A stretch of 64,000 nt of DNA, taken from a bacterium. Lineage in GTDB: Bacteria; Armatimonadota; Fimbriimonadia; Fimbriimonadales; Fimbriimonadaceae. This document shows, one piece after another, positions 23,225-25,837 of this stretch. A program made the position numbers and the translations under genes. The notes below the pieces were generated by a model that saw only the letters and a program-made list of their open reading frames with translations, was not told the origin of the DNA and made no database searches. The stretch lies in the NCBI GenBank assembly GCA_013823945.1, contig PNMZ01000001.1, positions 744,001 to 808,000 of the forward strand, read 5' to 3'. Numbering within the stretch: the stretch's first letter is position 1; the number at the start of each line of letters is the position of its first letter.

Positions 23225-24316
23225 ATGAGCTTGCCTTACGATCGCGTTTACAACTTCTCCGCGGGTCCGGGAGTGATTCCGGTTCCTGTTTTGGAAGAAG
23301 CCCGGGACAACATGTTGAATTGGAAGGGTTCGGGAGTGGGAGTGATGGAGATGAGTCACCGAGGCAAGCATTATGAGAAGATTGCGGCGGCAGCGGATGC
23401 GGATTGTCGCGAATTTTTTGGGATTCCGGATAACTACAAGGTGTTGTTCCTGCAGGGTGGGGCGAGTCTGCAGTTCACGATGCTCGCTATGAACTTTTTG
23501 AATGGAGGTTCGGCTGATTATTTGCGGACAGGGACATGGGGAGAGAAGGCAGTCTCGGCGGGGAAATTGCATGGAACGGTGAACTTGGCCCACGATGCCA
23601 AAGGGTCGAACTATGATGTCGCCGGATACGATTTGGCGCAATATTCGGATGATGCAAAGTATGTGCATTTCACGATGAATGAGACCATTCAGGGAGTGGA
23701 CTTCTTGGGTGATCCTCCGGCGGATGGTCGGGATTGGATTTGCGATATGAGTTCATGTATTGGGAGTCGGCCGTTTGATGTGAGCCGGTACGCGATGATT
23801 TATGCGGGGGCGCAAAAGAATATGGGGCCGAGCGGGGTGGCTTTGGTTTTGTTGCGTGAGGACTTACTGGAGCGTATTCCGGAAGGCTTGCCGCCGATGC
23901 TGGACTACAAGGTGATGGTCGAGAACGATTGGATGTACAACACGCCGAATACCTGGGGGGCTTATGTGATGAGTCTGGTTTTCCGGCACTGGATTGATTT
24001 CGGTGGGCTCGAGTCGGTGGGCAAATACAACGATGAGAAAGCGGGGCATATTTATTCGGCGATTGATGAATCGGGTGGGTTTTTTAAGGTTCACGCGCAG
24101 CCACAGAATCGGTCGCGAATGAACATTTCGTTTACGTTACCGGATGAAGACTTGACGACGAAGTTTTTGGCGGAGTCGAAGGCGGCGGGTTTCCATGAGT
24201 TGAAAGGTCACCGCTCAGTGGGCGGTTGCCGAGCGAGTATCTACAACGCATTTCCGGCGGAGGGTTGTGTTGCTTTGGGTGGGTTTATGCGGGAGTTCGC
24301 GGCGGGTAGAAGCTAA
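23225..24316 (+). CDS. serC: Phosphoserine aminotransferase
   Basis: 363-residue PLP enzyme of serine (and pyridoxine) synthesis, converting 3-phosphohydroxypyruvate to phosphoserine. Motifs: YNFSAGPGVIPVPVLEEA at the N-terminus, the MEMSHRGKHY substrate segment, FLQGGASLQF, and the PLP Lys in YAGAQKNMGPSG. The C-terminal GHRSVGGCRASIYNA holds the phosphate-binding residues. The stop codon overlaps the ATG of the AT-rich CBS-HEPN gene (TAATG). Confidence 0.95.
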   Translation: MSLPYDRVYNFSAGPGVIPVPVLEEARDNMLNWKGSGVGVMEMSHRGKHYEKIAAAADADCREFFGIPDNYKVLFLQGGASLQFTMLAMNFLNGGSADYLRTGTWGEKAVSAGKLHGTVNLAHDAKGSNYDVAGYDLAQYSDDAKYVHFTMNETIQGVDFLGDPPADGRDWICDMSSCIGSRPFDVSRYAMIYAGAQKNMGPSGVALVLLREDLLERIPEGLPPMLDYKVMVENDWMYNTPNTWGAYVMSLVFRHWIDFGGLESVGKYNDEKAGHIYSAIDESGGFFKVHAQPQNRSRMNISFTLPDEDLTTKFLAESKAAGFHELKGHRSVGGCRASIYNAFPAEGCVALGGFMREFAAGRS

Positions 24317-25629
24317 TGGCCTATTATATAAAGGACTTCATCCCTCAAGAGCAAAAAGTAGTCGAAGTTGAACGGGGAGCCAGCGTGCAAGATGCGTTGA
24401 ATATTATGAGCCAGCATGACTTTTCTCAACTTCCCATTAGAATAGAAAGTGGAAAAATAAACGTGATTACAATTGAAAACATACTCGAGAAGTGTCACAA
24501 GTTGAATGTCTCTCCTAGTGATTTAAATGTTGTTGATTGTATGGCGAGTGCTTCTACAATAGAAAGTGAGGGAGATGTAGATGAACTTATCGAACTTCTT
24601 GGAAAAAACGGATACGCTATTGTACTGGATCAGGGGGATATCTCAGGAATCATAACCGATTCAGATGCAGGATTATTTTTTCGAAGTAAACTTAGGGTAT
24701 TCACTCTTCTAGAAGATATAGAATCTATGATAAAGTCCGTAGTGAGAGCTTGCATATCTTATATCTCTGAACCCGGAGATGAAGATCGACTCAGCAGTTT
24801 GGTTAAAAAGTATTCAGGCAATTCTATTGACAGTGATTTGATGAGAAGTATCCTTAAAACGGCCACTAAGGGTGCGGTAGATAAAACGAGTATCGATAAG
24901 GCGCACGCAACCCTGGTTGAAGGGCTACCGTCGAAGGACTTCGACTCACTTACACTGTACGATTTTCAACAGTTGCTTTTCAGTGACGATGTTTGGAGCG
25001 TTGTTAGTAAAATTTCGGCCTTTAAGCAGGAAAAACTTTGGGCATTTTTTGACGAAGCTCGAAAAACGCGAAATGATGTATTTCACTTTCGTTCTACAAT
25101 AACGGAAAATGAGGTTGAGAATTTGCAAACGATTCATGATTGGTTATCCAATATTGTTAGCGAGTTGAGGAGTTTGTTGGAGTTAAAATCAAGACCTGGC
25201 GAAAAAAATGACAATTTGGAAGAAAATGTGCTTATCCCTGTTGAGTCAGTTGAAAAAAACTCTAAAAGAACTGCTAGAAGAGCCCGAATTAGACGAGGAA
25301 TTTTTATGGCCGAAATAAGCGAGTCAGACTACGAACTTCTCGATGAGCAATCTAGGAAAGTACCAGATGGGTTGATCCAAGGGAGTCACCTTGTTCGGTG
25401 GCTATTGCGTGTTCCTAGTTATGTTCCTTCGACAAAAGTTTCGTTTGCGAAATTTGAAGAATTGACGGGCATTTTGTTACCCCAGGTTGCACTAGAGAAT
25501 CCAACATGGTGGCTAACAAAGGAGTATGAAAGCGACCATAGTCGATTTTGGAGTGGAGCCAACTGGACTGTTGAGCTAATCGACTTTACGAAAGAGTCCA
25601 TTATCTTCCGTAGAAGAGATTTAAACTAA
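24316..25629 (+). CDS. CBS-HEPN domain protein with C-terminal DUF7662-like domain
   Basis: 437 residues, visibly more AT-rich than its neighbours and starting inside the serC stop. N-terminal CBS pair (about 1-125: VQDALNIMSQHDFSQLPI, then DVDELIELLGKNGYAIVLDQGDISGIIT), which usually senses adenine nucleotides. The middle (about 200-290) looks like a HEPN helical bundle of the Swt1 type, with the RNase-type motif Arg252-Asn-x3-His257 in KTRNDVFHF. The last about 85 residues (VSFAKFEELTG, LPQVA, WW, FWSGANWTVELID, IIFRR) resemble a small domain I recall as DUF7662, often found with restriction or HEPN proteins. A nucleotide-gated RNase is a reasonable guess. The domains are read by eye; the function is inferred. 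Confidence 0.7.
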   Translation: MAYYIKDFIPQEQKVVEVERGASVQDALNIMSQHDFSQLPIRIESGKINVITIENILEKCHKLNVSPSDLNVVDCMASASTIESEGDVDELIELLGKNGYAIVLDQGDISGIITDSDAGLFFRSKLRVFTLLEDIESMIKSVVRACISYISEPGDEDRLSSLVKKYSGNSIDSDLMRSILKTATKGAVDKTSIDKAHATLVEGLPSKDFDSLTLYDFQQLLFSDDVWSVVSKISAFKQEKLWAFFDEARKTRNDVFHFRSTITENEVENLQTIHDWLSNIVSELRSLLELKSRPGEKNDNLEENVLIPVESVEKNSKRTARRARIRRGIFMAEISESDYELLDEQSRKVPDGLIQGSHLVRWLLRVPSYVPSTKVSFAKFEELTGILLPQVALENPTWWLTKEYESDHSRFWSGANWTVELIDFTKESIIFRRRDLN

Positions 25630-25837
25630 GTCTCGCTTCTCAAATATACTTCGTGTGTGAAGTTGAAAGCACCGTAATTGAATTGAGGGACTTGAGGTCA
25701 AACGAAAGTTTCCGGAAGTGTATGGTGTGGTGACCCTTTACCTCTGTTTTGAGCCCCCGTTCGAGCCCGTGGAAGGCTCTACACAAAGCGCTGGAAAGCT
25801 CGATTGATTTGGCTGAAAACGGGTGAGTTTACAAGCT

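Follow-up and report, generated by a model that had tools for sequence, protein, structure and literature searches.

A CBS-HEPN protein with a DUF7662 tail encoded behind serC in a Fimbriimonadaceae bacterium, a predicted sister branch of the DS-11 anti-phage system

Directly behind serC, the stretch of bacterial DNA analysed here (64,000 nucleotides, hereafter the window) carries an open reading frame of 437 codons on the forward strand (24316-25629), coding for a 437-aa protein with a CBS pair, a predicted HEPN-type domain and a DUF7662 tail. The ATG of this gene, at 24316, shares one base with the serC stop codon (TAA, 24314-24316), and from this TAATG overlap we infer translational coupling to serC and read-through from serC transcription. 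The gene has a GC content of 40.0% and a GC3 of 36.8%, against 49-57% and 52-67%, respectively, in the eleven neighbouring genes. A preliminary description of the locus had already reported a 437-aa frame that begins within the serC stop codon and is more AT-rich than its surroundings, and both the overlap and the composition agree with it. The features of the locus are as follows:

23225-24316, forward strand: serC, phosphoserine aminotransferase (Pfam Aminotran_5, 2.1e-37), with the insertion at its 3' end
24306-25741, forward strand: inserted segment of 1436 bp and 40.3% GC, missing from the sister species G006 and delimited by the break in homology with it; the right border is approximate
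24316-25629, forward strand: CBS-HEPN-DUF7662 protein, 437 aa (open reading frame, Pfam, AlphaFold2 model and subfamily profile)
24316-24666, forward strand: CBS pair, residues 1-117 (Pfam, model with pLDDT mostly >90, structural matches and conservation)
24421-24423, forward strand: F36, aligned to Y157 of DS-11
24655-24666, forward strand: T114-x-x-D117 (T114 to D117), preceded by the invariant G111 (conservation)
24658-24765, forward strand: long helix, residues 115-150, from the CBS pair to the HEPN part, with the family motif LLEDIE at residues 131-136 (model)
24931-25191, forward strand: HEPN-type helical bundle, residues 206-292 (model helices and second stretch of the NF053863 match, profile positions 219-305)
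25069-25086, forward strand: R252-N253-x3-H257, predicted catalytic motif (sequence; invariant in 38 of 38 aligned proteins)
25192-25377, forward strand: linker, residues 293-354, disordered from about residue 300 (pLDDT <50 over most of residues 311-354)
25378-25617, forward strand: DUF7662 tail, residues 355-434 (Pfam PF24698; pLDDT about 50-85; conserved W398, W399 and W412)

Among the ten flanking window proteins, PADLOC found no defence system and no Drm genes adjoining the CBS-HEPN gene. It did return queC and queE matches among these neighbours, which, judging by their neighbourhood, we take to be ordinary queuosine genes. For the CBS-HEPN protein itself, the only PADLOC match was a weak one to CARF_HEPN_CSX20 (0.0099).

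A search of 101 genomes (that of the window and 100 relatives) found the full CBS-HEPN gene in the genome of the window only, together with a weak DUF7662-only match in one relative. Within the genus, serC is kept in seven of eight genomes and the CBS-HEPN gene is present in one. The gene is missing from the sister species G006 (SerC identity 97%): DNA homology with G006 stops at 24305 and restarts near 25742, the second point being approximate because identity is low where the homology resumes. Between these borders lie the end of serC (its last three codons), the whole CBS-HEPN gene and some 112 bp of sequence after it; the edges show no flanking repeats by which a transposon or an att site could be named. 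At this position G006 carries some 424 bp that include two additional, partial serC 3' ends, which suggests that the site undergoes turnover. These extra serC ends of G006 (L024/L033) stand among C-rich CCCTCCC stem-loop-like repeats. Further downstream comes an acyltransferase gene, which in several congeners (G003 among them) is what usually adjoins serC. The low GC, the empty site in the sister species and the absence from the relatives indicate that the CBS-HEPN gene is a recent, horizontal acquisition. Conservation next to serC, which the preliminary description had named as an argument against its own reading, was not found. Relatives of the gene are found behind acnB, within DISARM islands and at other sites, so the position next to serC looks like a landing site with no functional partnership. 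Scans of viral contigs with the protein, the family alignments and DUF7662 gave no relatives, and neither did phage records.

At the N-terminus, the CBS pair is recognised by Pfam (PF00571, 8.8e-11, above the cut-off) and, over residues 1-129, by VIA-align comparison with solved CBS pairs (Z up to 16.2); its T114-x-x-D117 fits the classic ribose-binding motif of such domains. An AlphaFold2 model built from a 38-sequence alignment reached a mean pLDDT of 79, with helices of the bundle at about 83-95, whereas the single-sequence model was poor (pLDDT 43). The family-based model predicts a bundle of helices 115-150, 214-221, 224-233, 238-256 and 264-292, where R252 and N253 fall close to the point at which helix 238-256 ends and H257 follows directly, before helix 264-292; in the model, this is the geometry expected of a HEPN domain. 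This placement, together with the invariance of the three residues throughout the alignment, indicates that R252-N253-x3-H257 is not a chance motif. Pfam HEPN models do not match the window protein itself, and HEPN_Swt1 gives weak matches in 12 of the 38 aligned family members (best 0.0011). Foldseek and VIA searches with the full model returned lists filled by CBS pairs, with no HEPN chain among the matches listed, and are silent on the rest of the protein. The HEPN fold is thus assigned from the model and the sequence. Finally, the tail exceeds the gathering cut-off of DUF7662 (PF24698, 1.7e-6, 28.2 bits against 26). In this way the architecture first proposed from the bare sequence, with a CBS pair, an Arg252-Asn-x3-His257 motif in a helical context and a DUF7662-like end, is supported by Pfam, the model and the conserved residues; the lack of a predicted bundle around residues 200-290, which would have spoken against it, did not come about, as the model has helices there.

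A protein with a comparable core is already known. DS-11, shown in 2026 to be a one-protein CBS-HEPN anti-phage system, needs both domains, and its defence is lost with the CBS mutation Y157A or with HEPN catalytic mutants; its authors proposed an RNase controlled by some adenine derivative (PMC13092281). The corresponding NCBIfam model, NF053863 (DS11_antiphage), matches the window protein with 4.4e-24 and 85.1 bits, without reaching the cut-off of 260, in two stretches that cover profile positions 73-216 (CBS) and 219-305 (HEPN). The N-terminal DS-11 domain (profile 1 to about 72) is missing, and the window protein begins at the CBS pair. For comparison, E. coli WP_000257686 scores 405 bits on the same model, and its Tyr157, within HDYSQLPV, aligns with F36 of the window protein, where the aromatic character is retained. 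Both proteins are encoded by a single gene and share the succession of a CBS pair and a HEPN-type domain, the RN-x3-H and T-x-x-D motifs and the aromatic residue at the Y157 position. On the other hand, their identity is about 25%, and only DS-11 opens with a further domain, about 110-120 aa long, at the N-terminus; its chain stops some 35 aa beyond the catalytic motif, where the window protein continues with a linker and the DUF7662 tail. Both the score and the missing domain place the window protein outside the DS-11 equivalog as curated, although a similar mode of action is proposed below. The preliminary description knew of no system with this exact domain order; with DS-11, the CBS-HEPN core turns out to have been described, and the novelty is confined to the tail and the subfamily that carries it.

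When 84,980 species genomes were scanned, 40 relatives came up; nearly all are canonical DS-11 proteins, most of which carry the N-terminal domain and stop about 35 aa past the motif. In the resulting alignment of 38 rows, S37, Q38, P40, G111, T114, D117, E136, W227, R252, N253 and H257 are invariant, as is I135, next to E136 within the LLEDIE motif, and position 36 is occupied by F in 27 and by Y in 11 proteins. One further candidate, L007, was rejected as it looks like a CBS membrane protein with no HEPN.

The order CBS-HEPN-DUF7662 recurs in distant bacteria, usually followed by a DUF4268 domain: L031 (plasmid pANA01 of Anabaena sp. 90), L043 (cyanobacterium UBA11372) and the Chloroflexota loci L146, L147 and L148 encode the longer form, while L149, also from Chloroflexota, is an intact protein with the same short layout as the window protein, these two lacking DUF4268 unlike most members. 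A profile made from these six proteins (L031, L043, L146-L149), with the window left out, matches residues 1-433 of the window protein with 202 bits, the canonical DS-11 profile reaching 84, and 200 shuffled window sequences reached at most about 4 bits. In a tree of the CBS-HEPN core, tail excluded, the window protein groups with the six members (96/87), separately from DS-11 (98/96). These sequence comparisons indicate a subfamily, with or without DUF4268, that spans Chloroflexota, Cyanobacteriota and Armatimonadota, and they identify the window protein as a sister branch of DS-11. The layout is rare, as it was found in one of 386 cyanobacterial genomes and in about five of 380 from Chloroflexota (including the split L150), with none among 398 Pseudomonadota or 372 Planctomycetota genomes. 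At L031:4915-14852 of pANA01, the 5' end of the gene has apparently been lost or degraded, with genes for an integrase and an AbiEii-type protein in the vicinity.

The branch of the window protein is long, so its function may have drifted. This branch, the low GC and the missing DUF4268, of which no remnant was found behind the gene, would also suit a decaying or inactive remnant, and a related gene of genome G1448 (L150:8800-10562) is broken into two overlapping frames close to the HEPN part, probably by a frameshift. However, the frame in the window is intact, every invariant catalytic and ligand residue is in place and L149 is an intact example of the short layout elsewhere, which leaves this explanation extremely improbable.

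In Chloroflexota, L147 lies among genes for DrmD (1.6e-287), DrmMI, AbiLii/AbiLi, PDC-S26, DrmA and DrmB, and at both L147 and L148 the CBS-HEPN gene stands between DrmMI and DrmA. The DrmMI, DrmA, DrmB, AbiL and PDC-S26 proteins of the two islands are 81-91% identical, compared with 64% for the CBS-HEPN proteins, whose divergence sits in the helix, HEPN and linker parts (39-51%), the DUF4268 domain keeping 88%. The DUF4268 tails match the PADLOC candidate PDC-S11, and the same domain is reported to occur in type IV restriction proteins, namely GmrSD (PMC4619093). Homologues of the same architecture near defence genes, for which the preliminary description had suggested looking, exist, L147 and L148 being inside DISARM/AbiL islands. 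A third CBS-HEPN type, of about 310-320 aa, with RNTVFH or RNIVFH and without DUF7662, occurs in Planctomycetota (L153:8232-9203 and L154:1889-2827), where its genes adjoin DrmMI/DpdE-like genes and a GajA gene.

Taken by itself, the position between DrmMI and DrmA could mean that the protein is an accessory module of DISARM that works only with Drm proteins, the lone copy in the window being a stranded orphan. This we regard as very unlikely, because Drm genes are missing around the window gene (by PADLOC on its neighbours) and from the stretches read by eye at L043, L149 and L146, and because DS-11 itself is a one-protein system. A second alternative is a housekeeping or stress regulator, in which the CBS pair would sense the energy state through AMP/ATP or Ap4A and RNA turnover would be adjusted by the HEPN RNase, with no role against phages. 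CBS-HEPN fusions were noted in 2013, with the proposal that they regulate the stability of RNA according to nucleotides (PMC3710099); the window gene has housekeeping genes on all sides and is probably expressed together with serC, and L149, of the same layout, has no obvious defence neighbours by eye. A regulator of core metabolism would nevertheless be expected to be conserved, and a gene that is AT-rich and restricted to one genome of the genus, with subfamily members in DISARM islands, makes this second explanation unlikely.

As for the tail, DUF7662 is also found joined to other domains: to an Xre-type HTH in cyanobacteria and, by eye, to a GIY-YIG-like part at L002. The cyanobacterium UBA11372 has several DUF7662-Xre HTH genes (L102-L104), some as tandem pairs. 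In the genome of the window, outside it, a second DUF7662 gene (L155:745-1764, contig C1 of G000) codes for 339 aa with an N-terminal part that by eye is PD-(D/E)XK-like; it lies 63 bp behind ndk, with a GC3 of 47% against 67-78% nearby, and none of the seven congeners has DUF7662. At L151:8560-10062 and L152:8087-9586, DUF7662-DUF4268 follows a different N-terminal half in proteins of about 500 aa. No solved relative was found, as the DUF7662 profile gave nothing better than E 0.12 against the PDB. The fusions to Xre HTH, PD-(D/E)XK-like and GIY-YIG-like parts suggest a nucleic-acid or partner-binding module. A bolder and rather doubtful idea is that DUF7662, with or without DUF4268, could be a trigger-recognition tail borrowed by different nucleases, so that CBS-HEPN-DUF7662 proteins would form a distinct two-input type of defence, with the CBS pair receiving a nucleotide signal and the tail a recognition event, wired to DISARM in some bacteria.

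The window protein is probably an anti-phage protein encoded by one horizontally acquired gene and would work like DS-11, with an RNase of the HEPN type gated by the CBS pair and a DUF7662 tail that may serve recognition or anchoring. In favour of this reading are the NF053863 match, the invariant residues, the six-protein profile, the defence islands of relatives and the signs of acquisition; counted against it are the 85 bits where 260 would be required, the lack of the N-terminal domain, of DUF4268 and of any defence gene recognised among the ten flanking proteins, the long branch, and a HEPN fold taken from the model and the sequence while the structure matches cover the CBS part. The preliminary idea of a defence-related single gene with a CBS sensor and a predicted HEPN RNase is supported by the homology to DS-11, the conserved residues and the islands of relatives. 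The process would start with a ligand made or released in infection, which, from the conserved residues and the likeness to DS-11, may be an adenine nucleotide or a derivative, and which would bind the CBS pair. Upon binding, the long helix between the two domains would change together with the HEPN dimer, and the predicted RNase formed around R252 and H257 would then cut cellular or phage RNA, blocking the infection. The tail, in place of the N-terminal domain of DS-11, might bind nucleic acid or a partner and serve for trigger recognition or anchoring.

HEPN_Swt1 and the HEPN RNases of toxin-antitoxin and abortive systems resemble the window protein in the R-x4-H motif, the Asn after the Arg and the helical bundle, but the latter differs by its fused CBS sensor, and no separate antitoxin gene was seen adjoining it. 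A second analogy is offered by the CARF/SAVED-gated HEPN effectors of the Csm6/Csx1 type, in which a nucleotide-binding sensor switches a HEPN RNase, as is proposed for the window protein; their sensor is a CARF domain instead of a CBS pair, and no cyclase or CRISPR genes were recognised near the window gene.

The location inside Chloroflexota DISARM islands suggests teamwork with a known system, and DUF7662 is marked as a tail of interest in other defence nucleases. Finally, a sister subfamily that keeps the sensor and the catalytic residues of DS-11 while swapping the proposed recognition domain splits what is essential (the CBS ligand site and the HEPN part) from what is variable (the tail), and would offer a natural experiment on how these RNases find their targets.
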